Origin: Aminomonas paucivorans DSM 12260
GTDB lineage: Bacteria > Synergistota > Synergistia > Synergistales > Synergistaceae
DNA length: 64,000 nucleotides
Direction of reading: 5' to 3'
NCBI RefSeq assembly: GCF_000165795.1
Contig: NZ_CM001022.1
Location: 1 to 64,000 of the forward strand
This document shows, piece by piece, positions 10,960 through 35,968 of the stretch. The translations under genes were made by a program, and so were the position numbers. Positions within the stretch are counted from its first letter, which is position 1. Each line of letters opens with the position of its first letter. The notes under the pieces are model-generated. The model did no database searches and was not told the DNA's origin. It saw only the letters and a list, made by a program, of their open reading frames with translations.

Positions 10960-11028
10960 CTCCCGAGGATGGCCTTGCGCCCCCAGTGTAGCGTCCCGGG
11001 GAGAGGGGGGACAGCGGGGAGGGGAGGA

Positions 11029-11085
11029 AGCGGTCAAAAAAACCGCTTCCCCCGGGGATGCGTCCTCCGGGGAGCCCTCTATGCT
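11029..11085 (+). promoter_or_regulatory. Candidate regulator site 1 and -10 element upstream of the microcompartment operon
   Basis: An 18-base element at 11029-11046 has the form A(G/C)CGNTCAAAAA(A/G)AC, and closely related copies occur at 11479-11496 and 11552-11569. Here it is embedded in a perfect 8-bp inverted repeat (GAAGCGGT at 11027-11034, ACCGCTTC at 11042-11049). A -10-like TATGCT at 11080-11085 begins 51 bases after the element's start and lacks a recognisable -35, as expected of an activator-dependent promoter. Its control by the adjacent AraC-type regulator is inference. Confidence 0.45.
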
Positions 11086-11666: not shown

Positions 11667-12008
11667 ATGGGAGAGGGCAAGCAGCGCATCGTCCAGGAAT
11701 ACGTGCCGGGCAAGCAGGTCACCCTGGCCCATCTGATCCGCCGTCCCCGGCCGGATCTGTGCGAACGTCTGGGGGTGGACCACCCGGGAGCGGTGGGGAT
11801 CATGACCATCACCCCGGGAGAGGGAGCCATCATCGCCGCGGACGCGGCGGGCAAGGCGGCGGACGTGCATGTCGAGTTCGTGGACCGTTTCACGGGGTGC
11901 CTCATGTTTACCGGAGAGGTCTCCTCGGTGGAGACGGGGCTTGTGGGGGCCGTCTCGGTCCTGGAGTCGGTGCTGGGCTTCGTGCCCGCTCCGATCACCA
12001 GGACCTAG
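11667..12008 (+). CDS. pduU: Microcompartment shell protein PduU (circularly permuted BMC domain)
   Basis: PduU forms hexameric shell tiles with a beta-barrel cap over the pore. The 113-residue product closely resembles Salmonella PduU: an N-terminal RIVQEYVPGKQVTLAHLI barrel strand, the permuted BMC fold with ITPGEGAIIAADAAGKAADV, and the C-terminal ITRT ending. EutS is the close relative, and the N-terminal segment favours PduU. The ATG at 11667 follows GGGGGAAGG. Confidence 0.93.
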   Translation: MGEGKQRIVQEYVPGKQVTLAHLIRRPRPDLCERLGVDHPGAVGIMTITPGEGAIIAADAAGKAADVHVEFVDRFTGCLMFTGEVSSVETGLVGAVSVLESVLGFVPAPITRT

Positions 12009-12021: not shown

Positions 12022-12492
12022 GTGTCTTCAGGGGGGGCGTCGCCCCGGAGGGTCATGGCCGTAGGCCCCGCCGGGGCGGGAAAGACCACCCTGCTGGCGG
12101 CCCTGGGGCTGACGGAGGGACGGGTCCGGAAGACCGAGATGGTGACCTTCTCCGCCTTCGCCATCGACACGCCGGGGGAGCTGCTGGACAATCCGAGGCT
12201 TTACCACGCCATCCTGATGAACGCCACCAAGGCGAGGGTGGTGCTGTTTCTGGCGGACGGAACGAGGGATTCCCGGTACCCCCCCGGGCTGGCCCGGTCC
12301 ATCCGGGCTCCGGTGCTGGGGGTGGTGACCAAGAGCGACGAGGCCACGGCGGAAGGGGTTCGCCGGGCCCGGGAGGTGTTGCTCCGGGCGGGGGCGAGGG
12401 AGGTGAGGCGCTGTTCCTCCGTCACCGGAGAGGGGTTGCGGGAAATGAAGGAGCGAATCGAAGAACTGTTGGAGGAGGGGTGTTCCCGATGA
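12022..12492 (+). CDS. pduV: PduV/EutP-family small GTPase-like protein
   Basis: PduV is a Ras-like P-loop protein found at the microcompartment surface in Salmonella and linked to its movement; the precise reaction is unknown. The 156-residue product has a P-loop [11 protein letters not shown] near residue 16, the family's AIDTPGE switch segment near 55, and VTKSDEA (NKxD-like) near 115. GTG at 12022 is chosen because it has a G-rich ribosome site and gives the usual short N-terminus. The frame is open further upstream, but only over pduU. The stop overlaps the next ATG by three bases. Confidence 0.85.
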
Positions 12493-12767
12493 ACGGAGAA
12501 GCGCTGGGGCTCATCGAGACCCGAGGTCTGGTGGGGGCCATCGAGGCGGCGGACGCCATGGTGAAGGCCGCCAACGTGCACCTCATGGGGTACGAGAAGA
12601 TCGGTTCGGGGTACGTCACCGTCATGGTCCGGGGGGACGTGGGGGCCGTGAAGGCCGCCACCGACGCGGGCGCTGCGGCGGCGAAGAAGGTGGGGGAGAT
12701 CGTCTCCATCCACGTGATCCCCCGGCCCCACAGCGACACGGAAAAGATCCTGCCCAAGCTGGGCTGA
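12489..12767 (+). CDS. pduA: PduA/PduJ-type hexameric shell protein
   Basis: This is a single BMC domain of 92 residues, the major facet tile of the shell, whose central pore passes the substrate. It has the canonical [27 protein letters not shown] opening, of which the first half is the family signature, and the [14 protein letters not shown] segment. The pore loop KIGSG matches PduA-type pores that admit propanediol or glycerol. The ATG at 12489 overlaps the pduV stop. A close paralogue lies at 19459. Confidence 0.93.
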
Positions 12768-12786: not shown

Positions 12787-13581
12787 ATGGAACAGGACGT
12801 CATGAAGAAGGTCATGGACGAGGTGATGAAGCGCTTCGCCTCGGAGATTCCCGTGGAGGCCCCGAAGCCCGCCGTCGAGGCGGCCTGCGTTCCCGCGGGG
12901 GTCACGGAGTTCATCGGCACCGCCCGGGGCCACACCATCGGCCTGGTGATCGCCAACGTGGAGCCCCGGCTTCACGAGAAGATGGGCATCGACAAACGCT
13001 TCCGCTCCATCGGGATCATTTCCGACCGCATCGGGGCGGGGCCGCAGATCATGGCCGCCGACGAGGCGGTGAAGGCCACCAACACGGAGATCGTCTCCGT
13101 GGAGCTTCCCCGGGACACGGAGGGCGGGGCGGGGCACGGCTGCCTCATCGTCTTCGGGGCGGAGGACGTCTCCGACGCCCGTCGGGCGGTGGAGGTGACC
13201 CTGAAGGACCTGGACCGCACCTTCGGGGACGTGTGGGGCAACGAGGTGGGCTACCTGGAGCTGCAGTACACCGCCCGGGCCAGCTACTGCCTCAACAAGG
13301 CCCTGGGCGCCCCCCTGGGCCGGGCCTTCGGGCTCATCCTGGGGGCCCCCGCGGGGATCGGCCTGGTGATGTGCGACACCGCCCTGAAGGCAGCGGAGGT
13401 GGAGCCCTTCGCCTACTGCTCCCCCAGCAAGGGCACCAGCCTCACCAACGAGTGTTTCATCATGGTCACCGGCGACTCCGGGGCGGTTCGGCAGTCCATC
13501 ATCTCCGCCCGAGAGGTGGGCTTGAAGCTGCTCCACTCCATGGGAGGCAAGCCCCAGACCAGCACCGTCTCCTACATCTAG
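12787..13581 (+). CDS. pduB: PduB tandem-BMC trimeric shell protein
   Basis: PduB is a trimer of tandem BMC domains and in Salmonella a major shell component. The 264-residue product matches PduB throughout (Salmonella 270), with GAGPQIMAADEAVKATNTE in domain one, the conserved ELQYTARASY region and GDSGAVRQSI in domain two. Residues 1-37 precede the point where Salmonella makes the shorter PduB' by internal initiation. No ATG or GTG stands at that place here, so only the long form may be made. The first 19 residues form an amphipathic helix like those that bind cargo to the shell. Confidence 0.95.
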   Translation: MEQDVMKKVMDEVMKRFASEIPVEAPKPAVEAACVPAGVTEFIGTARGHTIGLVIANVEPRLHEKMGIDKRFRSIGIISDRIGAGPQIMAADEAVKATNTEIVSVELPRDTEGGAGHGCLIVFGAEDVSDARRAVEVTLKDLDRTFGDVWGNEVGYLELQYTARASYCLNKALGAPLGRAFGLILGAPAGIGLVMCDTALKAAEVEPFAYCSPSKGTSLTNECFIMVTGDSGAVRQSIISAREVGLKLLHSMGGKPQTSTVSYI

Positions 13582-13611: not shown

Positions 13612-15285
13612 ATGGCACAAGCCAAGAGGAGCAAGCGATTCGAGATCCTGGAGAACCGACCCGTCCACAAGGACGGGTTCATCGGAGAGTGGGTGGACGT
13701 GGGCCTCATCGCCATGGACAGCCCCAACGATCCCAAGCCGTCGATCCGCATCGAGGGCGGCAAGGTGATGGAGATGGACGGCCGCACCCGGGACCAGTTC
13801 GACATGATCGAGCAGTTCGTGGCGGACTACGCCCTGGACACCGCCGTGGCCGTCGAGGCCATGGGGAAGAGCTGCCAGGAGCTGGCCCGGATGCTGGTGG
13901 ACATCAACGTCCCCCGCCGGGAGGTGCGTCGCCTCTTCGGAGGGCTCACCCCGGCGAAGCTGGCGGGGGTCCTCTCGGTCATGAACATCGTGGAGATCAT
14001 GATGGCCATGCAGAAGATGCGGTGCCGCCAGACTCCCGCCAACCAGGCCCACGTCACCAGCGCCAAGGACCACCCGGTGCTGCTGGCGGCGGACGCGGCG
14101 GAGGCGGCCCTGCGGGGGTTCGTGGAGATCGAGACCACCGTAGGGGTGGTGCGCTACGCCCCCTTCAACGCCCTGGCCCTGCTGGTGGGCGGCCAGGTGG
14201 GACGTCCGGGCACCCTGTCCCAGGACGCCCTGGAGGAGGCCTTCGAGCTTCAGATCGGCATGAGGGGCCTCACGGCCTACGCGGAGACCGTGTCGGTGTA
14301 CGGCACGGAGAGCGTCTTCGTGGACGGGGACGACACCCCCTGGTCCAAGTCCTTCCTGGCCTCCGCCTACGCCAGCCGGGGCCTCAAGATGCGGTTCACC
14401 AGCGGCACGGGCAGCGAGGTGCAGATGGGGGCCGCGGAGGGGCGTTCCATGCTCTACCTGGAAGCCCGGTGCATCCTGGTCACCCGGGGCGCGGGGGTTC
14501 AGGGGCTGCAGAACGGCTCCATCTCCTGCATCGGCGTGCCCGGTGCGGTTCCCTCGGGCATCCGGGCGGTGGCGGCGGAGAACCTCATCACCATGGCCCT
14601 GGACCTGGAGGTGGCCTCGGGGAACGACCAGACCTTCTCCCACTCCGACCTGCGTCGGGTGGCCCGCACCATCCCCCAGTTCTTCCCCGGCACGGACCTG
14701 ATCTTCTCGGGCTACTCCGCCACCCCCAACTACGACAACATGTTCGCCGGTTCCAACTGGGACATCGAGGACGTGGACGACTACCTGGCCCTGCAGCGGG
14801 ACTTCCGGGTGGACGGGGGCCTCAAGCCCGTGTCGGAGGACGGGGTGGTGGCGGCGCGGAACAAGGCTGCCCGGGCGCTCCAGGCGGTGTTCGACGAGCT
14901 GGGCTTCCCCCCCATCACCGACGAGGAGGTGGAGGCGGCCACCTACGCCAACGGGAGCCGGGACGTGGGCACCCGAAACGTGCCCGAGGACCTCAAGGGC
15001 GCGGAGCGCCTCATGGCGGAGGGGGTCACGGGGGTGGACATCGCCCGGATTCTCGCCAAGCGCGGTTTCCGGGACGTGGCGGAGTCCCTGATCATGATGA
15101 TGCGGCAGCGCGTTTCGGGGGACTACCTACAGACCTCCGCCTGGATCGGGTCGGACGGCACGGTGCACAGCGCCGTGAACGACCCGAACACCTACGAAGG
15201 TCCCGGTACGGGCTACCAGCTCACGGCGGAACGCTGGAACGAGATCAAGGCGATCCCCTGGGCGGTCAACCCCGAGGACATCTAG
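13612..15285 (+). CDS. pduC: Adenosylcobalamin-dependent propanediol/glycerol dehydratase, large subunit
   Basis: This is the catalytic alpha subunit of diol dehydratase, which converts 1,2-propanediol to propionaldehyde (or glycerol to 3-hydroxypropionaldehyde) by a B12 radical mechanism inside the microcompartment. The 557-residue product is full length (Salmonella 554) and highly similar from RFEILENRPVHKDGF to the C-terminus, with the barrel segments RCRQTPANQAHVTS, SGTGSEVQMG and SCIGVPGAVPSGIR intact. ATG at 13612 lies nine bases after AAGGGGG; the GTG at 13603 overlaps that site. Propanediol and glycerol preference cannot be separated from sequence here. Confidence 0.95.
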   Translation: MAQAKRSKRFEILENRPVHKDGFIGEWVDVGLIAMDSPNDPKPSIRIEGGKVMEMDGRTRDQFDMIEQFVADYALDTAVAVEAMGKSCQELARMLVDINVPRREVRRLFGGLTPAKLAGVLSVMNIVEIMMAMQKMRCRQTPANQAHVTSAKDHPVLLAADAAEAALRGFVEIETTVGVVRYAPFNALALLVGGQVGRPGTLSQDALEEAFELQIGMRGLTAYAETVSVYGTESVFVDGDDTPWSKSFLASAYASRGLKMRFTSGTGSEVQMGAAEGRSMLYLEARCILVTRGAGVQGLQNGSISCIGVPGAVPSGIRAVAAENLITMALDLEVASGNDQTFSHSDLRRVARTIPQFFPGTDLIFSGYSATPNYDNMFAGSNWDIEDVDDYLALQRDFRVDGGLKPVSEDGVVAARNKAARALQAVFDELGFPPITDEEVEAATYANGSRDVGTRNVPEDLKGAERLMAEGVTGVDIARILAKRGFRDVAESLIMMMRQRVSGDYLQTSAWIGSDGTVHSAVNDPNTYEGPGTGYQLTAERWNEIKAIPWAVNPEDI

Positions 15286-15303: not shown

Positions 15304-15963
15304 GTGCAGATCAACCGTGAACTGGTGGAGAAGGTCGTCGCCGAGGTGATCGCGGAGGTTCTGGGCTCTCAGTCCGGTTCCGCCCCGACCCCGACGCCTC
15401 GGGAGGAAGCCTCGGGGGTGGCGTTTGCGGAGAGCGGGAGGGCGGTCAAGGGGACGGACCCGAAGGAAGTGGTCCTGGCCCTGACCCCCGCCTTCGGCAC
15501 CACCTTCAGCAAGACCATCGTGGACGTGCCCCATGCGGAGGTGCTTCGTCAGATCTTCGCGGGGGTGGAGGAAGAGGGGCTGAAGATCCGGGTGGTGCGG
15601 GTCTACCACACCGCCGACGTGGCCTTCATGGCCCACCAGGCGGCGAAGCTCTCCGGGTCGGGCATCGGCATCGGGGTGCTCTCCCGGGGGACGTCGGTGA
15701 TCCACCAGAAGGACCTGGCTCCCCTGAGCAACCTGGAGCTGTTCCCCCAGTCCCCCCTGCTGGACGCCATGACCTTCCGGGCTATCGGCAAGAACGCCGC
15801 GAAGTACGCCAAGTCGGAGCAGCCCACGCCGGTGCCCACGAAGAACGATCCCATGGCCCGGCCCCGGTATCAGGGGCTGGCGGCGCTGCTCCACAACAAG
15901 GAAGCCCGCTTCCTCGACCGGACCAAGGCTCCGGTGGAGGTCAAGGTCACCTTCGAAGGATAG
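15304..15963 (+). CDS. pduD: Diol dehydratase medium subunit
   Basis: The beta subunit contributes to the cobalamin-binding face of diol dehydratase. The 219-residue product starts with GTG at 15304 after GGGGGAG. Residues 3-20 (INRELVEKVVAEVIAEVL) form the amphipathic encapsulation helix that sends PduD, and with it the whole enzyme, into the compartment. A proline-rich linker (about 22-45) and the globular domain follow, with HQAAKLSGSGIGIGVLSRG. It lies 18 bases after pduC and 12 before pduE. Confidence 0.94.
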   Translation: MQINRELVEKVVAEVIAEVLGSQSGSAPTPTPREEASGVAFAESGRAVKGTDPKEVVLALTPAFGTTFSKTIVDVPHAEVLRQIFAGVEEEGLKIRVVRVYHTADVAFMAHQAAKLSGSGIGIGVLSRGTSVIHQKDLAPLSNLELFPQSPLLDAMTFRAIGKNAAKYAKSEQPTPVPTKNDPMARPRYQGLAALLHNKEARFLDRTKAPVEVKVTFEG

Positions 15964-15975: not shown

Positions 15976-16512
15976 ATGGCCCAGATCAATGAGCAACTGG
16001 TGGCGCAACTGGTGAGGCAGGTCCTCCAGAACATGGACGGATCCGCCCCGAATCCCGCCGCCCCGGAGGCGGCCCGGTCCGGTCCGGGGGTCACCGCGGC
16101 GGACTACCCCCTGGGGAGCAAGCGGCCGGATCTCCTGAAGAGCCCCCGGGGCATTCCCTTCCAGGAGCTGACCCTGGAGGCGGTGGAGAGCGGCAAGGCC
16201 ACCTTCGAGGACTTTCGCATCACCCCGGACGCCCTGGAGATGCAGGCCCGGATCGCCGAGAGCGCCGGGCGTCCCCAGATCGCCCGGAACCTGCGGCGGG
16301 CGGCGGAGCTGACCCGGGTGCCCGACGAGCGCATCCTCCAGATCTACAACGCCATGAGGCCCCACCGGTCCACCCGGGAGGAGATGGAGGCCATCGCCCG
16401 GGAGCTGGAGGAGACCTACGCCGCGAAGGTGTGCGCCGGCTTCGTCCGGGAGGCCGCGGAGGTCTACGGGCGGCGGAAGCTGCTGCGGGGAGACCTCCCC
16501 TCCTCGGACTAG
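15976..16512 (+). CDS. pduE: Diol dehydratase small subunit
   Basis: The gamma subunit (178 residues; Salmonella 173) completes the alpha2beta2gamma2 dehydratase. Residues 3-20 are a second amphipathic helix (INEQLVAQLVRQVLQNM) like that of PduD, then a linker, then the helical body with YPLGSKRPDLLKSPRG and AMRPHRSTREEM, both typical of the family. ATG at 15976 follows GGGAGGGGA. Confidence 0.94.
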   Translation: MAQINEQLVAQLVRQVLQNMDGSAPNPAAPEAARSGPGVTAADYPLGSKRPDLLKSPRGIPFQELTLEAVESGKATFEDFRITPDALEMQARIAESAGRPQIARNLRRAAELTRVPDERILQIYNAMRPHRSTREEMEAIARELEETYAAKVCAGFVREAAEVYGRRKLLRGDLPSSD

Positions 16513-16522: not shown

Positions 16523-18346
16523 ATGTCCCTCGTCGCGGGCATCGACATCGGCAACGCCACCACGGAGGTGGCCCTGGCCCGGGTGGAGGGGAAGGAGATC
16601 ACCTTCCTCTCCACGGGCATCTCCGCCACCACGGGCATCAAGGGAACCCTGCAGAACCTGTCGGGGCTGCGCCAGTCCCTGGGCATGGCCCTGGAACGGG
16701 CGGGGTTCCGGCGGGACCAGTGGGGGGTGGTGGACGTGATCCGCCTCAACCGGGCGGCCCCGGTGATCGGGGACGTGGCCATGGAGACCGTCACGGAGAC
16801 GGTGGTGACGGAGTCCACCATGATCGGCCACAACCCCTCCACCCCCGGAGGTCTGGGGGTGGGTCGGGGGCGCACGGTGCCCTTCGAGGCCCTGCCCTCC
16901 CTTCGTCCCGGGGATCCGGTGATCCCCGTGATCCCCCGGTCCGTGGACTTCACCCGGGCCGCCGGGGGGATCGCCGAGGCCCTGGGGCGGGGGGTGGAGG
17001 TGGCGGGGGCCATCTGCCAGGCCGACGACGGGGTGCTCATCGTGAACCGGCTTCCCGTGGGCATCCCCATCGTGGACGAGGTGTCCGCGGTGGATCGGGT
17101 CCCCCTGGACATGAAATGTTGCGTGGAAGTGGCCCCTCCGGGGCGGGTGGTGGAACTGCTCTCCAACCCCTACGACATCGCCACCCTCTTCGACCTCTCC
17201 CCGGAGGAGACCCGGCAGATCGTGCCGGTGGCCCGGGCCCTGGTGGGCAACCGCTCCGCCGTGGTGGTCCGCACCCCCCTGGGGGAGGTGCGGGAGCGAC
17301 GCATCCCCGCGGGGGAGCTGTACATCCAGGGCCCGGGGGGCAAGCGGACCGTGAACGTGGAGGACGGGGCCGAGGCCATCCAGACGACGGTGGCCGCGTC
17401 GGCCCCGGTGGAGAACATCTTCGGCCAGCCGGGCACCCACGTGGGAGGCATGATGGAACGGGTCCGGCGCACCATGTCGGACCTCACGGGCATCCCCCTG
17501 GGAGAGGTCTCCATCCGGGACCTCCTGGCGGTGGACACCCTGGTTCCCCAGAAGGTGGTGGGGGGGGTGGCGGGGGAGTTCTCCCTGGAATCCGGCGTGG
17601 CCCTGGCGGTGATGGTGAAGACCGAGGAGCTGCCCATGCAGCGCCTGGCGGAGGCGGTGAGCGCGGACCTGGGGGTCCCGGTGGAGGTGGGGGGCGTGGA
17701 GGCGGACATGGCCATCCGGGGAGCCCTCACCACCCCGGGGACGAAACGCCCCCTGGCGGTGCTGGACCTGGGGGCGGGGAGCAGCGACGCCTCCTTCATG
17801 AAAGAGGACGGAACCGTGGACCTGGTGCACCTGGCGGGGGCGGGGAACATGGTGAACACCATCCTCGCCAGCGAGCTGGGCATCGAGGACCCGGACCTGG
17901 CGGAATCCATCAAGCGGTATCCCCTGTGCAAGGCGGAGAGCGCCTTCCACATCCGGCAGGAGGACGGGACGGTGCGGTTCTTCGACGCCCCCCTGGACCC
18001 CCAGGTGTTCGGCCGGGTGGCGCTGCTCCACGAGAACGACCTGCTTCAGCCCATCCCCCTGCCCGTGACCCTGGAGAAGGTCCGGGCGGCGCGGCGCAAG
18101 GCCAAGAAGGAGGTCTTCGTGACCAACGCCCTCCGGGCCCTGGAACAGGTGGCCCCGGCGGGGAACGTGCGGATGCTGGACCACGTGGTCCTGGTGGGGG
18201 GCTCGGCGTCGGACTTCGAGGTGCCCACCCTGATCACCGAGGCCCTCTCCCGCTACGGCATCGTGGCGGGACGGGGGAACATCCGGGGCAAGGAAGGCCC
18301 CCGGAACGCCGTCGCCACGGGCCTCGTGCTCTCGGCGGCGGGGTAG
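16523..18346 (+). CDS. pduG: Diol dehydratase reactivase, large subunit
   Basis: PduG, with PduH, exchanges damaged cobalamin in inactivated diol dehydratase in an ATP-dependent, chaperone-like reaction. The 607-residue product is family length (Salmonella 610). It opens with an actin-like nucleotide fold, GIDIGNATTEVALA, and has DLGAGSSDASF near residue 415 and the C-terminal VLVGGSASDFE. ATG at 16523 lies ten bases after the pduE stop with GGGGGG between. The next gene starts six bases after its stop. Confidence 0.95.
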   Translation: MSLVAGIDIGNATTEVALARVEGKEITFLSTGISATTGIKGTLQNLSGLRQSLGMALERAGFRRDQWGVVDVIRLNRAAPVIGDVAMETVTETVVTESTMIGHNPSTPGGLGVGRGRTVPFEALPSLRPGDPVIPVIPRSVDFTRAAGGIAEALGRGVEVAGAICQADDGVLIVNRLPVGIPIVDEVSAVDRVPLDMKCCVEVAPPGRVVELLSNPYDIATLFDLSPEETRQIVPVARALVGNRSAVVVRTPLGEVRERRIPAGELYIQGPGGKRTVNVEDGAEAIQTTVAASAPVENIFGQPGTHVGGMMERVRRTMSDLTGIPLGEVSIRDLLAVDTLVPQKVVGGVAGEFSLESGVALAVMVKTEELPMQRLAEAVSADLGVPVEVGGVEADMAIRGALTTPGTKRPLAVLDLGAGSSDASFMKEDGTVDLVHLAGAGNMVNTILASELGIEDPDLAESIKRYPLCKAESAFHIRQEDGTVRFFDAPLDPQVFGRVALLHENDLLQPIPLPVTLEKVRAARRKAKKEVFVTNALRALEQVAPAGNVRMLDHVVLVGGSASDFEVPTLITEALSRYGIVAGRGNIRGKEGPRNAVATGLVLSAAG

Positions 18347-18352: not shown

Positions 18353-18880
18353 ATGGCGACCTGGTGCGGCCGGGCAGGGGAGCTGCCCTCGGACAAGCCC
18401 TCCGTCCACCTCCTTGTGGACGCTTCGGTGGATCACTCCGCGGCCCGATGGGTCGCCGCGGGGTGCGAGGAGGAGGGGGTGCCCCTGGCCTGGGACGAGG
18501 GGACGGGGGATGCGGATGCCCTGGCCCGGCAGGCTTCGACCCGCTCCCGCCTGGAGGTGGGGGTGGGGGTGGACCCCCTGGGCGGGGCGGTGGCCCTGGC
18601 CAAGATCCCCCAGCGGGCCTACGTGGTCGAGGGGGGAAGCGATCCGGCGACGCTGCGGCATCTGGGACAGTGCGCCGCCCGGCTGGCCAAGGGGGAGCCG
18701 GTGCCCCGGAAGGCGCCCCCCGGGGCAGAGGTCGGGGTGGCGGCTCGGCCGGAGGACAGCGAAATCGGCGCGGCCCCGTCCCGGTCCTTCCCGGAAGGGG
18801 ATGGGCGGACCCGTCTCCTGGTGGAGGCGGTGCTGAAGGCCCTCGCAGAACGACCGGGAGGGAGGGATGGATCGGCATGA
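18353..18880 (+). CDS. pduH: Diol dehydratase reactivase, small subunit, with a C-terminal extension
   Basis: PduH is the small partner of PduG and resembles the dehydratase beta subunit in fold. Residues 15-120 match the family, including VDASVDHSAARWVAAGCEEEGVPL in two parts and RLEVGVGVDPLGGAVALAK. The product is 175 residues, about 55 longer than Salmonella PduH. The extra tail is a disordered linker followed by an amphipathic helix, RTRLLVEAVLKALAER, near the C-terminus, much like the encapsulation helices of PduD and PduE. That the tail targets the reactivase to the lumen is inference. The stop overlaps the next start codon (ATGA). Confidence 0.88.
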   Translation: MATWCGRAGELPSDKPSVHLLVDASVDHSAARWVAAGCEEEGVPLAWDEGTGDADALARQASTRSRLEVGVGVDPLGGAVALAKIPQRAYVVEGGSDPATLRHLGQCAARLAKGEPVPRKAPPGAEVGVAARPEDSEIGAAPSRSFPEGDGRTRLLVEAVLKALAERPGGRDGSA

Positions 18881-19416
18881 GCGGGCAGAAGAACGCCTTG
18901 GGGTTCATCGAAACCGTGGGTCTGGCGGCGGCGGTGGCGGCGGCGGACGCGGCGTGCAAGGCCGCCGACGTGCGTCTCATCGGCCGGGAGATCTCCAAGG
19001 GCTACGGCTACGTCACCGTGAAGCTCGCCGGAGACGTGGGGGCCGTGAAGGCGGCCCTCGCCGCGGCGAAGGCCGCAAGCGAGAAGGTGAACCGGGTGTG
19101 GTCCCTGGACCTGATCCCCCGCCCCGCGGCGGGCCTGGGGGACGTGCTGGTGTGGAACCGGGAGACCCGGGGGGCGGAAGGGTGGCGGGAGGGCCAAACC
19201 GTCTCCTTCCCCGAAGAGCCTCCCGTCCCGTCGGAGGAACCGACTCCCCCGGAGGAGGAGTCCCTCCCGGAGGTCCCGGAGACGCCGGAACCGGCGGAGG
19301 AGCCCGAGGCCCCGGCCCCCGAAGGGCCCGAGGTGAAGGAAGAGGAGACGGAGAAGGGGACGACTCCGGGCGCCGAGGCGCCCCGGGCCCCCCGGCGCAG
19401 GACCAAGAGGCGTTGA
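18877..19416 (+). CDS. BMC shell protein with an acidic/proline tail (PduK-like position)
   Basis: The 179-residue product has an N-terminal BMC domain (about residues 4-90: NALGFIETVGLAAAVAAADA, then [13 protein letters not shown]). The rest is a low-complexity tail rich in Glu and Pro (about 103-165) ending in a strongly basic RRRTKRR. In Salmonella this position is held by PduJ/PduK, and PduK also has a C-terminal extension, but that one has cysteines and this tail has none. The domain is less like PduA than the neighbouring tiles. ATG at 18877 overlaps the pduH stop. The tail could reach into the lumen or the cytoplasm; no function is known to me. Confidence 0.8.
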   Translation: MSGQKNALGFIETVGLAAAVAAADAACKAADVRLIGREISKGYGYVTVKLAGDVGAVKAALAAAKAASEKVNRVWSLDLIPRPAAGLGDVLVWNRETRGAEGWREGQTVSFPEEPPVPSEEPTPPEEESLPEVPETPEPAEEPEAPAPEGPEVKEEETEKGTTPGAEAPRAPRRRTKRR

Positions 19417-19458: not shown

Positions 19459-19773
19459 ATGACTCAGGAAGCGTTGGGCATGATCGAGACCCGGGGCCTG
19501 GTGGGCTCCATCGAGGCGGCGGACGCCATGGTGAAGGCCGCCAACGTCACCCTGGTGGGACAGCGCCTCACCGGGGGCGGCCTGGTGACGGTGATGGTTC
19601 GGGGGGACGTGGGGGCCGTGAAGGCCGCGGTGGACGCGGGAACCGCCGCCGCCACCCGGGTGGGTGAAGTGATCTCCACCCACGTGATCCCCCGGCCCCA
19701 CACGGACACGGAGACCATCCTTCCCTCCCCCCAGGGAGGGCGGACGGAGAACGTGTCGATCTCCCAGGACTAG
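19459..19773 (+). CDS. pduJ: PduJ/PduA-type hexameric shell protein, second copy
   Basis: The 104-residue single BMC domain is very similar to the copy at 12489, sharing [33 protein letters not shown] and the THVIPRPH ending. It differs in the pore loop (TGGG where the other has KIGSG) and has a 15-residue polar tail. Duplicated PduA/PduJ tiles are usual in propanediol compartments. ATG at 19459 follows GGGAGG. Confidence 0.92.
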
Positions 19774-20001
19774 GGGGACAGGATGGATTCCGGGGCGGAT
19801 CGGGCGGCAGGCGCGCCTCTCCCCGGAGGAGACATCCCCTTCGCCCCTGGTGGAGGGGGAAGGGGGCGACGCGGAGGCGGGGGAGGCCGAGAGGGCCTCT
19901 TCCGCCGGACCCGGGAGGACTCGGCCCCTTGGGGCGGGTCTTTCCGGGAGACCGGACGAGGCGGGGGCCCCTGCCCCCTCCGGGGAGGAGAGGGTGCGAC
20001 G
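19774..20001 (+). other. 228-base gap between pduJ and eutJ with an unexplained open frame
   Basis: The eutJ frame is open from ATG 19783, but the peptide would be a Gly/Arg-rich run unlike any EutJ. The frame starting at 19784 is also open, to a TAG just past 20001, and reads as an acidic, proline-containing peptide (PLVEGEGGDAEAGEAERASS, ending RVRRCV). That resembles the tail of the BMC protein at 18877, but it has no start codon. It may be the remnant of a tail or shell gene, or chance in G+C-rich DNA. Confidence 0.35.
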
Positions 20002-20901
20002 GTGCGTGTAGACCTGGACGTGCGGGAGACGGAGCTGCCCTCCCTGGGTCCCTGGGACCCGGAGCGGGTGACGGACCTCCTGGCCCCCCTGGAGGAGTCC
20101 CTGGAGGACGAGCGCCCCCGGGCGGACTGGAAGCGCCTGTTTCTGGGCTTCGACCTGGGGACCACCAACCTGGTGCTGGTGGCCCTGAACGAGGAGGGGC
20201 GCCCCGTGACGGCGGTGATGGAGTCCTCCCGCGCCGCCGTGCGGGACGGGGTGGTGGTGGACTACTGGCAGGCCATCCAGGGGATGAAGTCCTGCCTGGA
20301 GCGACTCCAGCGCCGCCTGGGCCGGGACCTCCCGGGGGTGGGGGCCGCCGCGTTCCCCCCCGGGGTGGGGGAGCGCACCGCCCAGGTGTGCGCCCACGTG
20401 GTGGAGGCCCTGGGCTTCGACTGCCGGGGGCTCTACGAGGAACCTACCGCCGCGGCGGAGGCCCTGGGGGTGCAGGAGGGGGCCATCGTGGACATCGGCG
20501 GCGGCACCACGGGGATCTCGGTGCTCCGGGAGGGGCGGGTGGTCTACTCCGCCGACGAGCCCACCGGGGGCACCCACATGACCCTGGTGCTGGCGGGGGG
20601 CCTGGGACTGGAGTTCGACGAGGCGGAGACCCGCAAGCGGCGCATCGCCCAGGAACCGAGGCTGGTGCCCCTGCTGGTGCCGGTGCTGGAGAAGATGGGC
20701 ACCATCGTGCGGGACCACCTGGTGCGAAGCGGCCACCTGGGCCGGGTGCCCGTCCTGGTGTCCGGGGGCGGGGCGGTCCTCCCCGGGGCGGAGGGCGTCC
20801 TCTCCCGGGTGGTGGGCGAACCGGTCCATCTGGCCCCCCATCCCCTGCTGGTGACCCCCGCGGGCATCGCCGCCCGCCTGTGGAGGGAGCGCCGTGGCTA
20901 G
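20002..20901 (+). CDS. eutJ: EutJ-family actin/Hsp70-like protein of the microcompartment locus
   Basis: EutJ proteins are Hsp70-like ATPases of unknown role in ethanolamine and some propanediol loci, possibly chaperones for the cobalamin enzymes. The 299-residue product has the phosphate-1 loop GFDLGTTNLVLV near residue 55, EEPTAAAEALG and the phosphate-2 loop AIVDIGGGTTGISV in the middle, and an adenosine-type VSGGGAVLPG near the end. No substrate-binding domain of Hsp70 type follows. GTG at 20002, eight bases after GGGGAGGAGAGG, is chosen over ATG 19783, whose extension is low-complexity. It overlaps the next gene by eight bases. Confidence 0.87.
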   Translation: MRVDLDVRETELPSLGPWDPERVTDLLAPLEESLEDERPRADWKRLFLGFDLGTTNLVLVALNEEGRPVTAVMESSRAAVRDGVVVDYWQAIQGMKSCLERLQRRLGRDLPGVGAAAFPPGVGERTAQVCAHVVEALGFDCRGLYEEPTAAAEALGVQEGAIVDIGGGTTGISVLREGRVVYSADEPTGGTHMTLVLAGGLGLEFDEAETRKRRIAQEPRLVPLLVPVLEKMGTIVRDHLVRSGHLGRVPVLVSGGGAVLPGAEGVLSRVVGEPVHLAPHPLLVTPAGIAARLWRERRG

Positions 20902-21556
20902 GCCCGACCCGGAGGCCTTGATCGCCCGGGCGACGGAGCTGTTGCGCCTTCCCCGCATCGGCCTGCTCTGGTGCCGGGGGGCCGTGCCCTCCCCCTGGAC
21001 CCTTCCGGGGACCCGGGGGATCCACTACCTGGAGGAGCCTCGCGCCGCGGGGCTGCACCCCCTCTACCTCCTGGAGGGCCTCTCCCTCCCGGAGCGGGAG
21101 GCCCGGACCCTGGCGCTTCTGGCGATCCTGGAGCCCCCGGTCTCCCTGGTGGCGGAGCTGGTCTCGGGGTTGGGGGCTTCCCCCGCCGCCCGGCTGGCGT
21201 CGGCCTGCCTGGACGAAGGGGTGCCGGTGCTCCTGGACCCTTCCCGCCTGGAGTCCTGGCTGGCCGGGGCCGGTGCGGGGGCTCGGGACCGATGGACGGA
21301 GGCCCGAGGGGTCCTGGAGGCCCGGGGGGTCCGGTGGCTGGGCTCCGGAGGGGCCGCACCGCTCCCGAAGGCTCCCGACCATCCGGGAGCCCTGCGCCTC
21401 GGTCCGGGCTGGCACGCCTGGGGCGAGCTGAGCGGGCGGACGGAGGGGTGCTCCGCCGTGGTCCTGGCACCGGGGGCGAGGCTGACCCCGGAGGCCCGGG
21501 AACGGCTTCGGGTTCGGGGCATCCCGGTTCGGGAGGAGGGGACGGGATGGCGTTGA
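20894..21556 (+). CDS. PduM-like protein (assigned mainly by position)
   Basis: PduM is a microcompartment protein of unknown biochemistry needed for proper shell assembly in Salmonella. This 220-residue product lies between eutJ and the pduN region, where pduM is usually found. Faint similarities include an alternating helix/strand pattern with EGVPVLLDPSRLESWL and a C-terminal VVLAPGARLTPEARERLRVRG, like the end of PduM. Overall identity looks low, and it is longer than PduM (about 163 residues). I would treat the name as tentative. GTG at 20894 overlaps the eutJ stop; its own stop lies past the next ATG. Confidence 0.5.
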   Translation: MARPDPEALIARATELLRLPRIGLLWCRGAVPSPWTLPGTRGIHYLEEPRAAGLHPLYLLEGLSLPEREARTLALLAILEPPVSLVAELVSGLGASPAARLASACLDEGVPVLLDPSRLESWLAGAGAGARDRWTEARGVLEARGVRWLGSGGAAPLPKAPDHPGALRLGPGWHAWGELSGRTEGCSAVVLAPGARLTPEARERLRVRGIPVREEGTGWR

Positions 21557-21849
21557 TCCATCGGCTGATCCAGGCGCCCTCGGAGACCACCCGGGCCATG
21601 CTGGCCCGGCGCATGGGCCTCCGGAAGGACGAGGCCGTCCCCGGCCCCTGGGGAGCGGTGCTGCTGGTACAGGGGCAGGTGGCGGACCTCTTCGCCGCCG
21701 TGGACGTGGGCGCCAAGGCGGCCCCCGTTTCGGTCCGGGAGGTGTGGGGCAACTGCCCCCAGCACCTCAACACCGTGGCCTTCTGGGGGACGGCGGCGGA
21801 CGTGCGGCAGGTCCTGTCCGCCCTGAAGAACGAGGGGGTGCTGGCGTGA
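21547..21849 (+). CDS. GrpU-like BMC shell protein with a GNCPQ motif (possible pore Fe-S cluster)
   Basis: This is a divergent BMC-domain protein of 100 residues. Residues 35-62 (AVLLVQGQVADLFAAVDVG) and 75-95 (NTVAFWGTAADVRQVLSAL) fit BMC strands and helices, but the usual GLIE and RGDV motifs are lost. Residues 68-72 are G-N-C-P-Q. As I recall, a GxCPQ motif marks GrpU of glycyl-radical propanediol compartments, where six copies place cysteines at the pore to bind an Fe-S cluster. Here Cys70 is the only cysteine, as that model needs. Finding such a tile in a B12 (not glycyl-radical) locus is unusual. ATG 21547 overlaps the preceding gene, and the stop overlaps the next GTG. Confidence 0.7.
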   Translation: MALIHRLIQAPSETTRAMLARRMGLRKDEAVPGPWGAVLLVQGQVADLFAAVDVGAKAAPVSVREVWGNCPQHLNTVAFWGTAADVRQVLSALKNEGVLA

Positions 21850-22148
21850 AGCTTGCCAAGGTGGTGGGTTCGGTGGTGGCCACCCGGAAGGACGAACGTC
21901 TGGTGGGCCACAAGCTCCTGGTGGTGCAGACCCTCATGCCCGGACGGGAGGGTACCTATCGCCCCGGGCGGGACGAGGTGGGGTTCGCCGTGGCGGTGGA
22001 CCTGGTGGGGGCGGGGACGGGGGAGACGGTGCTCCTCTGCTCCGGCAGCTCCGCCCGGAGCGCCGCGGGGGACCTGTCCTCCCCGGTGGACCTGGCCATC
22101 GTGGGCATCGTGGACCGATCGGACGTGGACGACCGGGAGGTGCTCTAG
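21846..22148 (+). CDS. pduN: PduN/EutN-type pentameric vertex protein
   Basis: EutN/CcmL-family pentamers cap the vertices of the polyhedral shell. The 100-residue product begins with the typical KLAKVVGSVVATRKDERLVGHKLLVVQ (first strand and loop) and contains DEVGFAVAVDLVGAGTGETVLLCSGSSAR in the middle, ending with AIVGIVD. GTG at 21846 overlaps the preceding stop by three bases. It is directly followed by pduO at 22149 with no gap. Confidence 0.95.
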   Translation: MKLAKVVGSVVATRKDERLVGHKLLVVQTLMPGREGTYRPGRDEVGFAVAVDLVGAGTGETVLLCSGSSARSAAGDLSSPVDLAIVGIVDRSDVDDREVL

Positions 22149-23105
22149 GTGGGGCGCCTCTACACCCGAGGGGGGGACGGGGGCCTGACCCGGCTGGGGG
22201 ACGGCACGGCGGTGCCCAAGGACCACCGAAGGGTGGAGACCAGCGGCCTGCTGGATCAGGCGGGAGCCGCCCTGGGCCTGGCCCGGTCCCTGGCGCCCGA
22301 GGCCCTGGAAGAACCCATCCGGCGGGCCCAGGAGGACCTGATGGCCCTCATGGCCCGGATCTCCCGGGCCCGCCCCGACGGCCCCATCCCCTCCCCGGAG
22401 GAGCTGGAGGCCCGCATCGAGGCGATCCGTTCCCTCTGTCCCTTCCCGGACCTGTTCGTCCTCCCCGGGGACAGCCCCTCGGGAGGGGCGCTCCACCTGG
22501 CCCGCACCCTGGTGCGGGGGGCGGAGCGGCAGGCCGTGGCCCTGGCACGGGAGGAGGGGGCGGACGAGGGGGTGCTGGCCGCCCTGAACCGCACCTCCGA
22601 CCTGCTCTTCGCCCTGGCCCTGTGGGCGGACCGGGAGGAGCGGGTGGGGCGCATCGCCCGCCGGGTGATGCAGGAGCTTCGGGAGGATCCGCCCCGGTGC
22701 GGGGTGGGGCTGGAGGAGGCCAAGGATCTGATCGAGGTCATGGAGGGGAAGGCCCGGGAGGTGGGGGTCCCCATGGCCCTGGCGGTGACGGACGAGACGG
22801 GGGCCCTGGCGGCCTTCCTGCGCCAGGACGGGGTGTTGCCGGTGAGCGTGGACCTGGCCCGCCAGAAGGCCTTCACCTGCACCCGGATCCGGATGAGCAC
22901 CGGGGAGCTGGCCCCCCTGGTGCAGCCCGGGGCGGCTCTCTATGGCATGCAGAACCAGCGGGATTTCGTGGTCTTCGGCGGGGGCATCCCCCTCTGGCGG
23001 GGGGAGGTCCTGGCGGGGGCCGTGGGGGTCAGCGGCGGGACGGTGGAACAGGACGTGACGGTGGCCGGTGCGGGGGCGGAAGCCTGGAAGAGACGAGGGA
23101 GGTAG
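22149..23105 (+). CDS. pduO: Two-domain PduO: cob(I)alamin adenosyltransferase plus GlcG/HbpS-type domain
   Basis: PduO makes adenosylcobalamin from cob(I)alamin and ATP, supplying coenzyme to diol dehydratase. Residues 1-175 are the adenosyltransferase, with the ATP-binding RLYTRGGDGGLTRLGDG and the conserved HLARTLVRGAERQ and LNRTSDLLFALA. Residues 190-318 are the PduOC domain (AKDLIEVMEGKARE to the C-terminus with FGGGIPLW), a fold reported to bind haem in related proteins. The GTG at 22149 abuts the pduN stop. Both domains look complete. Confidence 0.94.
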   Translation: MGRLYTRGGDGGLTRLGDGTAVPKDHRRVETSGLLDQAGAALGLARSLAPEALEEPIRRAQEDLMALMARISRARPDGPIPSPEELEARIEAIRSLCPFPDLFVLPGDSPSGGALHLARTLVRGAERQAVALAREEGADEGVLAALNRTSDLLFALALWADREERVGRIARRVMQELREDPPRCGVGLEEAKDLIEVMEGKAREVGVPMALAVTDETGALAAFLRQDGVLPVSVDLARQKAFTCTRIRMSTGELAPLVQPGAALYGMQNQRDFVVFGGGIPLWRGEVLAGAVGVSGGTVEQDVTVAGAGAEAWKRRGR

Positions 23106-23114: not shown

Positions 23115-24506
23115 ATGGCGATGGCAAAGGAGCAGCTCATCGAAAACGTGGTGGGTCGGGTCCTCTCCCTCCTGGGAGAGGAGGGGGTTTCTTCCTGCGG
23201 CTACGAGAAGGTGGACGAGGCGGTGGCCGCTGCGGGGGCGGCCCAGAAGGCCTGGCAGTGGGACTTCTCCCTGGAGGCCCGGATGCGGGTGGTGGACCGC
23301 CTGCGCCGGGACCTGCTGGAGGGGGACGTGATCCGGGAGGTGTCCGCCCTGACCCTGGAGGAGACGGGCATGGGGCGGCTGGACGACAAGCTGATCAAAA
23401 AGCGCCTGGCCGTGGAGAAGACCCCGGGGCCGGAGTTCTTCGCCACCAAGGCCACCAGCGGGGACCACGGCCTGGTGCTGGAGGAGCTGTCCCCCTTCGG
23501 GGTCATCGCCTCCATCACCCCCTCCACCAACCCGGTGGCCTCGGTGTTCAACAACACCCTCTGCATGATCTCCGGGGGCAACGGGGTGGTCTTCGCCCCC
23601 CACCCCGGGGCAGTGAAGTCCACCCTGAGGGCGCTGGAGTACGTGACCCGCTCCCTGGAGGCCAGCGGCGCCCCCTCGGGCCTGGTGACCACCCTCACCC
23701 AGCCCAGCATGGAGAACCTGGGGCTCCTCATGGAGCACCGGGGCATCCAGCTCATCTCTGCCACCGGAGGCCCCGGGGTGGTGAAGGCCGCCCTCTCCTC
23801 CGGCAAGCCCGCCGTGGGGGCGGGTCCCGGCAACCCCCCGGTGGTGGTGGACGAGACGGCGGACCTGCGGGCCGCCGCCCGGGACGTGATCCTGGGCTGC
23901 TCCTTCGACAACAACCTGCCCTGCATCGCCGAGAAGGAACTCTTCGCGGTAAACTGCATCGCCGACGAGCTGAAGAAGCACATGCTGGAGAGCGGGGCCT
24001 TCGAGCTGAAGGACCCGAAGGACGTGGGGAAGCTGATGGAGCTGACCCTGCGGGGAGGCGCCCCCAACAAGGCCTGCGTGGGCAAGTCCGCCCCTTGGCT
24101 GCTGGAGCAGATCGGCCTGAAGGTGGGGGGGGACGTGCGGGTGATCCTGGTGGAGACCCCGGAGGACCACCCCTTCGTGCAGGTGGAGATGCTCATGCCC
24201 CTGCTGCCCCTGGTGCGGGTGGCGGACTTCGACGAGGCCCTGGCGGCGTCCCTGCGGGCGGAGCACGGTTTCCGGCACAGCGCCGCCATCCACAGCACCC
24301 ACGTGGTCCACATGAGCCGCATGGCCCGGGCCATGGAGACCACCATCTTCACCAAGAACGCCCCCTCCTATGCCTCCATCGGCGTGGGGGGCGACTGCCC
24401 CACCGCCTTCACCATCGCCACCACCACCGGCCAGGGACCCACCACCCCCCTGTCCTTCTGCCGCACCCGGCGCTGCCTGCTCCACGGGGCGTTCCGGATC
24501 GTCTAG
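23115..24506 (+). CDS. pduP: CoA-acylating propionaldehyde dehydrogenase
   Basis: PduP oxidises the toxic aldehyde made by diol dehydratase to propionyl-CoA with NAD in the compartment lumen. The 463-residue product has a classic N-terminal encapsulation helix at residues 4-20 (AKEQLIENVVGRVLSLL), a nucleotide-binding region, and the catalytic Cys270 in FDNNLPCIAEKE. ATG at 23115 follows GGAGGT at 23098-23103; ATG 23121 is possible. No pduL is found nearby to turn the product into propionyl phosphate. Confidence 0.95.
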   Translation: MAMAKEQLIENVVGRVLSLLGEEGVSSCGYEKVDEAVAAAGAAQKAWQWDFSLEARMRVVDRLRRDLLEGDVIREVSALTLEETGMGRLDDKLIKKRLAVEKTPGPEFFATKATSGDHGLVLEELSPFGVIASITPSTNPVASVFNNTLCMISGGNGVVFAPHPGAVKSTLRALEYVTRSLEASGAPSGLVTTLTQPSMENLGLLMEHRGIQLISATGGPGVVKAALSSGKPAVGAGPGNPPVVVDETADLRAAARDVILGCSFDNNLPCIAEKELFAVNCIADELKKHMLESGAFELKDPKDVGKLMELTLRGGAPNKACVGKSAPWLLEQIGLKVGGDVRVILVETPEDHPFVQVEMLMPLLPLVRVADFDEALAASLRAEHGFRHSAAIHSTHVVHMSRMARAMETTIFTKNAPSYASIGVGGDCPTAFTIATTTGQGPTTPLSFCRTRRCLLHGAFRIV

Positions 24507-24516: not shown

Positions 24517-25857
24517 ATGGAGCGGGGGGAACTGGCCCGAAGGGTCTTCGAGGCGGGGGTGGTGGGCGCGGGGGGCGCGGGCTTCCCCACCCACGTGAAG
24601 CTCGCCGCGGAGGGCATCGACACCTACCTGATCAACGGGGCGGAGTGCGAACCCCTCCTCACGGTGGACCAGCACCTCATGGAGGCGGAGGCCCCCCGGC
24701 TGGTGCGGGCCGCCGCCTCCGTGGCGGAGGCCTTGGGGGCGACCCGGGCGGTCTTTGGCCTCAAGAAGAAGTACCGACGGCAGATCGACGCCCTCCGGGC
24801 CGCCGGGGGGGAGGTGGCGGAGGTGGGGAACACCTACCCCGCGGGGGACGAGGTGATCCTCATCCAGGAGGTCCTGGGCCGCACGGTCCCCGAGGGGGGG
24901 CTGCCCCTCCTGGTGGGGGCGGTGGTGAACAACCCCGAGACCCTGCTGAACGTGGCGGAGGCCCTGGAGGGCCGACCGGTGACCCACACCTACGTCACCC
25001 TGGGGGGCGCGGTGGCGTCCCGGGGGGTCTGGCGGGTCCCCGTGGGGACCGACGGGGCGGAGCTTCTGGCCGCCGCAGGGGGTGTCACGGAGGACGACCC
25101 GGCGTACATCGAGGGAGGCCCCATGACGGGCAAATACCGCTTCGACCCCCACTTTCCCGTCACCAAGGCCACCAAGGGACTTCTGGTGGTGCCCCGCACC
25201 TCCGCCCTGGTGCGCTATGAGACCCTGGACGTGGAGCGCATGCTGAACCAGGCCCGGGTGGCCTGCTGTCAGTGCGTCCAGTGCACCCTGGCCTGCTCCC
25301 GCAACCTGGTGGGCTACGACCTGGAACCCCACCGGATCATGCGCCTGCTGGCCTACGGCCCCATGGGACTGCCGGAGGTGGCCAAGCAGGCCTTCCTCTG
25401 CTCGGAGTGCAACCTCTGCAGCGGCCTCCACGCCTGCCCCATGCAGCTCTCCCCTCGACGGGTGAACCAGGTCCTCAAGGCCCGGATGCGGGAGGCGGGG
25501 ATCCGGCCCGACTTTCCGAGGCGGGAGATCGAACCCCGACGGGAGCAGCCCTACCGACAGGTGCCCAGCCACCGTCTGGTGCAGCGCCTGGGGCTGGAGC
25601 GCTACGAGGGACCCTCCCCCTTCCGGGGAGACCTGCGCCCCTCCGGGGACCTGACGGTCCTCCTGAAGCAGCACGCCGGGGTCCCGGCGGTTCCCTGCGT
25701 GGCTCCGGGCCAGGTCCTGGAGGCGGGGGCCCTGCTGGGCTCTCCCCCCGAGGGGGCCCTGGGGGCCCGGGTGCACGCCCCCCTGGGGGGCCAGGTGGTC
25801 CGGGTGACCCCCGAGGCCGTGATTCTACGACCCGCCGCGGCGGGACAGGAAGGGTGA
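24517..25857 (+). CDS. pduS: PduS, RnfC-like Fe-S flavoprotein (cobalamin reductase)
   Basis: PduS is reported to reduce cob(II)alamin to cob(I)alamin for PduO and may pass electrons across the shell through PduT. The 446-residue product has the RnfC/NuoF-type FMN/NADH-binding opening GAGGAGFPTHVKL, two 4Fe-4S motifs, CCQCVQCTLACSR and CSECNLCSGLHACP, between residues 245 and 310, and a C-terminal barrel-sandwich segment. Length matches the family (about 450). ATG at 24517 lies ten bases after the pduP stop. Confidence 0.94.
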   Translation: MERGELARRVFEAGVVGAGGAGFPTHVKLAAEGIDTYLINGAECEPLLTVDQHLMEAEAPRLVRAAASVAEALGATRAVFGLKKKYRRQIDALRAAGGEVAEVGNTYPAGDEVILIQEVLGRTVPEGGLPLLVGAVVNNPETLLNVAEALEGRPVTHTYVTLGGAVASRGVWRVPVGTDGAELLAAAGGVTEDDPAYIEGGPMTGKYRFDPHFPVTKATKGLLVVPRTSALVRYETLDVERMLNQARVACCQCVQCTLACSRNLVGYDLEPHRIMRLLAYGPMGLPEVAKQAFLCSECNLCSGLHACPMQLSPRRVNQVLKARMREAGIRPDFPRREIEPRREQPYRQVPSHRLVQRLGLERYEGPSPFRGDLRPSGDLTVLLKQHAGVPAVPCVAPGQVLEAGALLGSPPEGALGARVHAPLGGQVVRVTPEAVILRPAAAGQEG

Positions 25858-25864: not shown

Positions 25865-26413
25865 ATGGACAAGGCGCTGGCGGTGGTGGAGCTGATCAGC
25901 GTGGCCCGGGGCGTGGCGGCGGCGGACGAGATGCTCAAGGGAGGGGACGTGACCCTCCACGTGTCCTGCTCCGTCTGCCCGGGGAAGTACCTCATCGTGG
26001 CGGGAGGCCAGGTGGGGGCGGTGAAGAGCGCCCTCAAGACGGGCCTGGCGGCGGGGGCGGAGGCGGTGACGGACTCCCTCCTCCTGCCCAACGCCCACCC
26101 GGACCTCTTCCCCGCCCTGTCGGGGGCCACGGACCCGGGGGCCCTCGCCTCCCTGGGGGTGGTGGAGACCATGAGCGGCCCCGCCGCGGTGGAGGGGGCG
26201 GACGCCGCCGCCAAGGCCGCCCGGGTGCGACTGTTGGAGATCCGCCTGGGCCGGGGCCTGGGGGCCAAGGCCCTCTTCAGTTTCACCGGCGACGTCTCGG
26301 AGGTGCGCACCGCCGCCAAGGCGGCGGAAAACCTCATCGCCCCCAAGGGCCTCCTGGTGGACCTGACGGTGATCCCCCGCCCCCACAAGGACCTGCTGCC
26401 CTTCGTGGTCTGA
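25865..26413 (+). CDS. pduT: PduT tandem-BMC shell protein with a pore Fe-S cluster
   Basis: PduT is a trimeric shell tile that binds a 4Fe-4S cluster at its threefold axis and probably conducts electrons to PduS. The 182-residue product has two BMC domains (residues 1-90 and 95-182) and Cys38 in SCSVCPGKY, equivalent to the cluster ligand in Salmonella PduT; Cys35 is also present. It is the last gene of the operon and is followed by a strong hairpin at 26463-26495. Confidence 0.94.
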   Translation: MDKALAVVELISVARGVAAADEMLKGGDVTLHVSCSVCPGKYLIVAGGQVGAVKSALKTGLAAGAEAVTDSLLLPNAHPDLFPALSGATDPGALASLGVVETMSGPAAVEGADAAAKAARVRLLEIRLGRGLGAKALFSFTGDVSEVRTAAKAAENLIAPKGLLVDLTVIPRPHKDLLPFVV

Positions 26414-35668: not shown

Positions 35669-35867
35669 GCACCGGGGCCTTACGAGAATGGCACGCAAGG
35701 CGCTCAGCCGCCTGCAATCCAACTCGTTCGGGTGCTCGGGAAGACCGGTGAAACTCCGGAGCGGACCCGCCACTGTGACCCTGACGAACCTGCCGCGACA
35801 TCCACTGGACCTCGATCCGGGAAGGAGCAGGGGAGGAAGAAGGGAAGCCAGGAGACCGGCCCGGTGC
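35669..35867 (+). promoter_or_regulatory. Adenosylcobalamin (B12) riboswitch
   Basis: The aptamer consensus is nearly complete. It reads GGGAA at 35738-35742, CCGGTG-AA-CTCCGG at 35745-35759, CCCGCCACTGTGA at 35766-35778, GGGAAG at 35819-35824 and the B12 box AGCCAGGAGACCGGCC at 35846-35861. A closing stem P1 pairs GCACCGGG (35669-35676) with CCCGGTGC (35860-35867) perfectly. It is oriented toward the aconitase gene and is followed by an intrinsic terminator at 35969, the usual layout for repression by adenosylcobalamin. Confidence 0.95.
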
Positions 35868-35968
35868 GAGGGAGAGTCAAGAGTCTGCGGTGGTCGGATT
35901 CTCGTCTGGCAAGGCACATCCCGTGCATGGGTCGCTTTGTGCACGAGACGTCCCGCTTGGTTTCCAGA

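Follow-up and report, generated by a model that had tools for sequence, protein, structure and literature searches.

A GrpU-family shell protein encoded in the B12-dependent propanediol operon of Aminomonas paucivorans and across the Synergistota

Introduction

GRM loci are the best-known home of GrpU (PMC6325248), and the published distribution places the protein "almost exclusively in GRM loci." Its described motif, G-x-C-P-Q-N/H, is located at the pore, and in GrpU of glycyl-radical compartments mutation of the cysteine abolishes an Fe-S-like absorption at 420 nm (PMC6325248). Two roles have been proposed for the protein, the transport of electrons or of Fe-S clusters for glycyl-radical enzymes (PMC7593272 for Fe-S transport). 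GRM1 loci are reported to encode two Fe-S pore proteins together (PMC6325248), and for Bilophila it has been suggested that PduS and PduT export electrons from a compartment that contains no alcohol dehydrogenase (PMC8667426). A GrpU homolog, Awo_c10540, is also present in A. woodii, whose genome has a B12 pdu locus; this gene lies outside BMC loci, its transcript is low, and its product was not detected in purified compartments (PMC7593272).

Here we describe a grpU gene that, unlike Awo_c10540, lies inside a pdu operon. It was found in a stretch of 64,000 nucleotides (hereafter, the window) of the genome of Aminomonas paucivorans DSM 12260, which is complete (99.96%) in one contig of 2,630,170 bases.

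Results

The operon and its grpU gene

The operon runs along the forward strand from the EutS/PduU-like gene to pduT, in the order given in Table 1. PduCDE, PduGH, PduO, PduP and shell proteins are all encoded around grpU, as are PduS and PduT, and the B12-dependent propanediol locus proposed in an earlier note on this DNA is borne out by these genes. GrpU and a PduT with an Fe-S cysteine (C-P-G-K-Y) are encoded in the same locus, as that note had it; PduT has tandem BMC domains together with this motif, while scoring below the NCBIfam equivalog cut-off. Genes for PduL (PF06130) are absent from the whole genome despite the full pdu operon. No PduQ (Fe-ADH) is encoded in the operon, and the four Fe-ADH genes of the genome all lie at 0.99–2.01 Mb. 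Nor does the operon encode a glycyl-radical enzyme: the only one in the genome (a single PF02901 match) is at 839208–841151, about 818 kb away, with no BMC genes around it. Its neighbors are a probable transporter and, judged by its reading frame, an activase. An Rfam scan of the window gave no match at grpU and found only a cobalamin riboswitch (RF00174, 81 bits) at 35714–35878, about 9 kb downstream of the operon. When PduS of the window was set beside PduS of L020–L048, the spacing of the second Fe-S motif was CxxCxxCx5C within the Synergistota clade (CSECNLCSGLHAC), compared with CxxCxxCx3-4C in other PduS proteins.

Table 1. Features of the pdu operon of A. paucivorans and of its grpU gene (window coordinates)
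Feature	Position	Strand	Basis or remark
PocR-domain histidine kinase, divergent from operon	9637..11037	-	PF10114, PF06580, PF02518
EutS/PduU-like BMC-H	11667..12008	+	PF00936; NF012012 slightly below cut-off
PduV/EutP-like GTPase, weak annotation	12042..12492	+	no family match; syntenic, conserved
PduA, BMC-H	12489..12767	+	kept in all complete relatives
PduB, BMC-T	12787..13581	+	kept in all complete relatives
PduC, B12-dependent diol dehydratase large subunit	13612..15285	+	NF011979 939 bits; PF02286 1026 bits
PduD, diol dehydratase medium subunit	15304..15963	+	position, co-conservation with PduC
PduE, diol dehydratase small subunit	15976..16512	+	position, co-conservation with PduC
PduG, dehydratase reactivase large subunit	16523..18346	+	position, co-conservation
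PduH, dehydratase reactivase small subunit	18353..18880	+	position, co-conservation
PduK-like BMC-H, long acidic C-terminal tail without Cys	18877..19416	+	PF00936 77.7 bits
PduJ, BMC-H	19459..19773	+	pore-loop comparison partner of GrpU
EutJ, DnaK/actin-like chaperone family	19783..20901	+	TIGR02529, NF011660 above cut-off
220-aa protein in pduM position	20894..21556	+	no Pfam/NCBIfam match; overlaps grpU start
Shine-Dalgarno-like GGGAGGAGGGG	21532..21542	+	5' of grpU ATG
GrpU, permuted BMC-H tile of the GrpU family (100 aa)	21547..21849	+	best PDB sequence and fold matches 4OLP/4OLO
GrpU pore motif codons G68-N-C70-P-Q-H73	21748..21765	+	ORF reading; G68-N-C-P-Q invariant; aligned with pore loop of window PduJ
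PduN/EutN vertex protein	21846..22148	+	PF03319; start overlaps grpU stop
PduO, cobalamin adenosyltransferase	22149..23105	+	PF01923, HbpS-like, TIGR00636
PduP, CoA-acylating aldehyde dehydrogenase	23115..24506	+	NF011927 above cut-off
PduS, flavin/Fe-S corrin reductase	24517..25857	+	PF01512, PF13534, PF13375; Cys motifs CCQCVQCTLAC, CSECNLCSGLHAC
PduT, BMC-T with pore Cys	25865..26413	+	PF00936 in two stretches; TIGR02526 106.9 bits, cut-off 250.3
PduT Fe-S pore motif C-P-G-K-Y	25976..25990	+	motif reading

The grpU reading frame translates as MALIHRLIQAPSETTRAMLARRMGLRKDEAVPGPWGAVLLVQGQVADLFAAVDVGAKAAPVSVREVWGNCPQHLNTVAFWGTAADVRQVLSALKNEGVLA, in which Cys70 is the sole cysteine; the single-cysteine G-N-C-P-Q protein of the earlier note is what the frame encodes. 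Its description as a divergent BMC protein also agrees with the Pfam BMC score (PF00936), which at 21.1 bits falls below the threshold of 24.5. The gene begins within the 3' end of the preceding frame, and its stop codon and the start of pduN share the sequence GTGA. Given these overlaps with both neighbors, the strong Shine-Dalgarno-like sequence, and orthologs with intact frames in 35 of 188 Synergistota genomes, grpU is a real gene. The 220-aa protein encoded directly 5' of it occupies the same place in most Synergistota pdu loci, at about 28–41% identity.

Assignment to the GrpU family

In a phmmer search against the PDB, the window protein matched 4OLP (4.4e-12) and 4OLO (2.2e-11), with the next chains all at 0.03 or above. 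These two structures are GrpU of Pectobacterium wasabiae and of Clostridiales bacterium 1_7_47FAA, respectively. An AlphaFold2 model built from a 17-row alignment (pLDDT 87) has the same two chains as its top Foldseek matches, with TM scores of 0.76–0.82 normalized to the target, followed by the permuted BMC-H proteins 6NLU and 5HPN; in the predicted structure a strand and a helix at the N terminus precede the core, and model and fold matches together indicate a single circularly permuted BMC domain. The residues G68-N-C-P-Q-H73 fit the published motif (PMC6325248), in agreement with the earlier note, which named GxCPQ as the cluster-binding motif of GrpU. In a profile alignment with PduJ of the window (E 4.5e-4, although with a probability of only 33%), GNCPQ lies in the pore loop between strands 2 and 3, and this loop is three residues longer than that of PduJ. 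D53, V61, E65, G68, N69, C70, P71, Q72 and G81 are invariant among 32 diverse GrpU members, a set partly gathered by the GNCPQ pattern; members detected by profile alone have G-x-C-P-Q, where x is N, S, T, I, L or V.

The sequence matches, the fold matches and the published pore motif thus support membership of the GrpU family, as the earlier note had claimed, the two solved GrpU chains being the sole significant sequence matches in the PDB. The sub-threshold Pfam score would suit an ordinary divergent BMC tile with a merely coincidental GxCPQ, but this is refuted by the fold match and by a sequence match that is significant, covers the full length and singles out the two solved GrpU proteins, and we give a chance likeness practically no credence. 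The window protein shares with the solved pair the permuted BMC-H fold (TM about 0.8), a similar length and G-x-C-P-Q-N/H, with a cysteine that the alignment places in the pore loop. It differs in reading G-N-C-P-Q-H where they read G-S-C-P-Q, in belonging to a separate Synergistota clade, and in the setting of its gene, a B12-dependent pdu operon that encodes no glycyl-radical enzyme; its locus lies outside the published GRM distribution of the family.

Distribution and phylogeny

Across 188 Synergistota genomes, GrpU was detected (profile E < 1e-20) in 35, the B12 diol dehydratase PduC in 31, and both in 28. In this survey of B12-type loci, which the earlier note had proposed, GrpU accompanies PduC in 28 of 31 genomes, compared with 7 of the 157 without PduC (Fisher p 1e-23); counted by genus, the figures are 15/17 and 5/46. 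In GrpU-bearing Synergistota pdu loci, grpU stands directly before pduN. GrpU went undetected in three PduC-bearing genomes, an absence that, like every absence call in draft genomes, is bounded by contig ends: two have a Bacillota-like type of pdu locus (G014, G019) and one only a PduC fragment (G106). Of the seven genomes with GrpU and without PduC, four have ethanolamine-type loci (G067, G062, G064 and, judged by resemblance, G086); in G026 and G154 the gene is an orphan, and in G173 it lies on a short contig. GrpU is a standard part of B12 pdu loci in this phylum, and the window gene is no stray occurrence.

Two composite clusters were also observed. One (L022, G016:C199:400-20399) joins propanediol and ethanolamine genes: a full set of pdu genes with GrpU is followed by EutB, EutC, EutL and EutA, and these by PduS and PduT. 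In the other (L168, G057:C1:2663500-2682499, and also G049; Synergistota strain L-13), a B12 pdu operon runs directly into genes for PduA, a first glycyl-radical enzyme, another PduA, PduB, a further glycyl-radical enzyme and its activase, so that B12 and glycyl-radical chemistry are encoded within one BMC gene cluster. B12 and glycyl-radical BMC loci are said never to co-occur in one genome, according to a paper as cited in PMC7593272.

Beyond the Synergistota, Candidatus Formimonas warabiya (G194), Christensenella sp. UBA1431 (G206) and a Bacillota MAG (G189) have B12 pdu loci in which grpU directly follows pduT; in each, PduC lies 11–12 kb upstream, on the contig and strand of grpU. GrpU is also encoded in eut loci, among them those of Merdimonas and Lachnospiraceae (L067–L069, L072, L121, L123). 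An even draw of 291 genomes from Clostridia, the class to which Christensenella belongs, gave 15 GrpU genes in 13 genomes: five in GRM loci, two in EUT loci, one in a PDU locus, five in Fe-S-carrier neighborhoods and two in unclear settings. Only one of the 21 PduC-bearing genomes in this sample has GrpU inside its pdu locus (G206), and GrpU in pdu loci, the rule in Synergistota, is by these counts rare in Clostridia.

The orphan genes lie next to genes for Mrp/ApbC, ferredoxin-type MinD ATPases, NifX-like and DUF134 proteins, and sometimes a NifU-like scaffold (L061 10001–15527, L037 5038–9855, L080, L112, L115–L118), and such neighborhoods suggest a compartment-independent part for GrpU in Fe-S handling. 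The idea that an orphan GrpU works for a pdu locus at another site of its genome proved weak: many orphan-bearing genomes have PduC, yet in the Clostridia sample this holds for only two of the five genomes whose orphan lies in an Fe-S neighborhood (G298, G392).

A tree of 68 GrpU proteins, built from few columns and with many weak forks, requires five changes of the PDU label, at least four of them by well-supported branches. In it, the PDU and EUT proteins of Synergistota group in one deep clade (SH-aLRT 95), separate from the GRM proteins.

Association with PduS and PduT

With each of three different signature enzymes (PduCDE, EutBC, glycyl-radical enzymes) the order EutJ-(M)-GrpU-EutN/PduN-..-PduS-PduT is seen again, so that GrpU goes with the redox module rather than with the enzyme. 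In GrpU-bearing loci, PduS has both Fe-S cysteine motifs and PduT has CPGK[YF]; PduT is present in 20 of 27 such pdu loci. PduS and PduT were not found in the examined stretch of six (G031, G017, G118, G177, G178, G011), although in four of these genomes (G017, G031, G177, G178) PduS-PduT lies on another contig. GrpU is therefore not strictly tied to a PduT of the same locus, and the presence of both as two Fe-S pores in one shell would not be universal. Furthermore, the placement of grpU after pduT in Bacillota pdu loci differs from the Synergistota order, so that a fixed complex is not implied.

The GrpU–PduT pairing was also seen in two glycyl-radical loci (L119, L122), with the order EutJ-GrpU-EutN-PduS-PduT. 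The pdu locus shares with GRM1 loci (PMC6325248) the joint encoding of two Fe-S pore proteins, but has PduCDE in place of the glycyl-radical enzyme and radical-SAM activase that are the signature there. Two Fe-S pore proteins per locus are thus not new; their occurrence in B12 loci is. As an Fe-S pore shell protein of the same operon, PduT (TIGR02526, with the motif CPGKY) resembles GrpU, but it has two BMC domains and forms a trimer with three cysteines per pore, whereas GrpU, with one domain, would offer six. The midpoint potential reported for PduT is +99 mV.

Discussion

Of the explanations considered, we favor one in which electrons cross the shell through GrpU as well as by way of PduS/PduT: a true GrpU, hexameric and with an Fe-S cluster in its pore, would be built into the shell of the B12-dependent propanediol compartment and carry electrons in parallel to PduT. 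On balance, we judge this reading probable. The six Cys70 residues of the putative hexamer would ring the central pore and hold the cluster, which would relay electrons through the shell between luminal PduS, supplied with NADH from PduP, and a cytosolic carrier; alternatively, electrons may be drawn in for cobalamin reduction. Since PduQ is missing from the operon and PduL from the genome, luminal NADH would have no sink encoded in the operon, and the relay would let the compartment drain reducing power without an enclosed PduQ.

A stricter version of this idea, in which GrpU replaces PduQ as the electron sink, arose from two GrpU-less Synergistota pdu loci that encode PduQ (L083, L084) and its lack in the window. 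Across 41 pdu loci, however, PduQ was present in 2 of the 27 with GrpU and in 3 of the 14 without (p = 0.32). Lack of PduQ is common to both sets, and we therefore make no claim that GrpU substitutes for it. PduL is missing from 12 of the 27 and from none of the 14 (p = 0.003), a comparison confounded by the mostly different lineages of the two sets.

A different role, the passing or storage of Fe-S clusters, is unlikely but deserves weight. The GrpU hexamer would here take a cluster from cytosolic carriers and hand it on to Fe-S proteins of the lumen, PduS for example, in line with one of the two proposed roles (PMC7593272). About a third of the GrpU genes in the Clostridia sample (5/15) lie outside BMC loci near Mrp/ApbC, MinD, NifX-like and DUF134 genes; the orphans of Propionispora (L061) and of two Synergistota (G026, G154) likewise stand beside Fe-S carrier genes, and the orphan GrpU of A. 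woodii is similar (PMC7593272). These neighborhoods keep cluster transfer alive. Against it, Fe-S assembly genes were not observed alongside GrpU in pdu or eut loci, the cassette order pairs it with PduN, PduS and PduT, and the orphans may put the family to a different use.

We consider it more unlikely still that the cluster is a structural plug, or a redox-sensitive gate closing the pore, in a tile that seals the shell and carries no electrons. Six cysteines around one pore would indeed block metabolites, and GrpU is additional to the PduA, PduJ, PduK and PduU tiles; a plug, however, has no need of the PduS/PduT company that GrpU keeps in most pdu loci. That the protein is a functionless leftover of an ancestral glycyl-radical compartment, retained after a swap of signature enzyme, is highly improbable. 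Such a history would suit the fame of GrpU as a protein of GRM loci (PMC6325248) and the two genomes (G049, G057) in which a B12 pdu operon directly precedes two glycyl-radical enzymes and an activase, but the GrpU proteins of Synergistota pdu and eut loci are split from the GRM ones as a deep clade of their own (SH-aLRT 95), and a functionless tile would lose its cysteine, whereas Cys70 and the entire motif are invariant in the aligned members.

Extending the electron-relay reading beyond this operon, GrpU may be a general Fe-S pore of anaerobic metabolosomes, not a glycyl-radical accessory, taken up several times by B12 pdu and eut loci and forming with PduT two pores that differ in cysteine count and perhaps serve as two electron lanes of different potential. 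This broader proposal is doubtful at present; if true, one lane would drain luminal NADH and the other would serve low-potential cobalamin reduction.

The view that GrpU occurs almost exclusively in GRM loci is in need of revision, given its presence in B12 pdu loci, in EUT loci and outside BMC loci, and given that GRM loci account for only 5 of 15 genes in the Clostridia sample. Its occurrence in B12 loci is new, though the literature may already have noted GrpU in a PDU locus. Because GrpU is conserved in B12 pdu and eut compartments without a glycyl-radical enzyme, the nearest to the window gene being the distant one described above, activation of such enzymes cannot be its general role. 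The presence of GrpU in B12 propanediol and ethanolamine loci instead points to a shared function, the traffic of electrons (or clusters) across the wall. Loci with GrpU and PduT, with GrpU and no PduT in the same locus, and with PduT and no GrpU offer natural test systems, and these bear on the question of whether electrons cross compartment shells via Fe-S pores.
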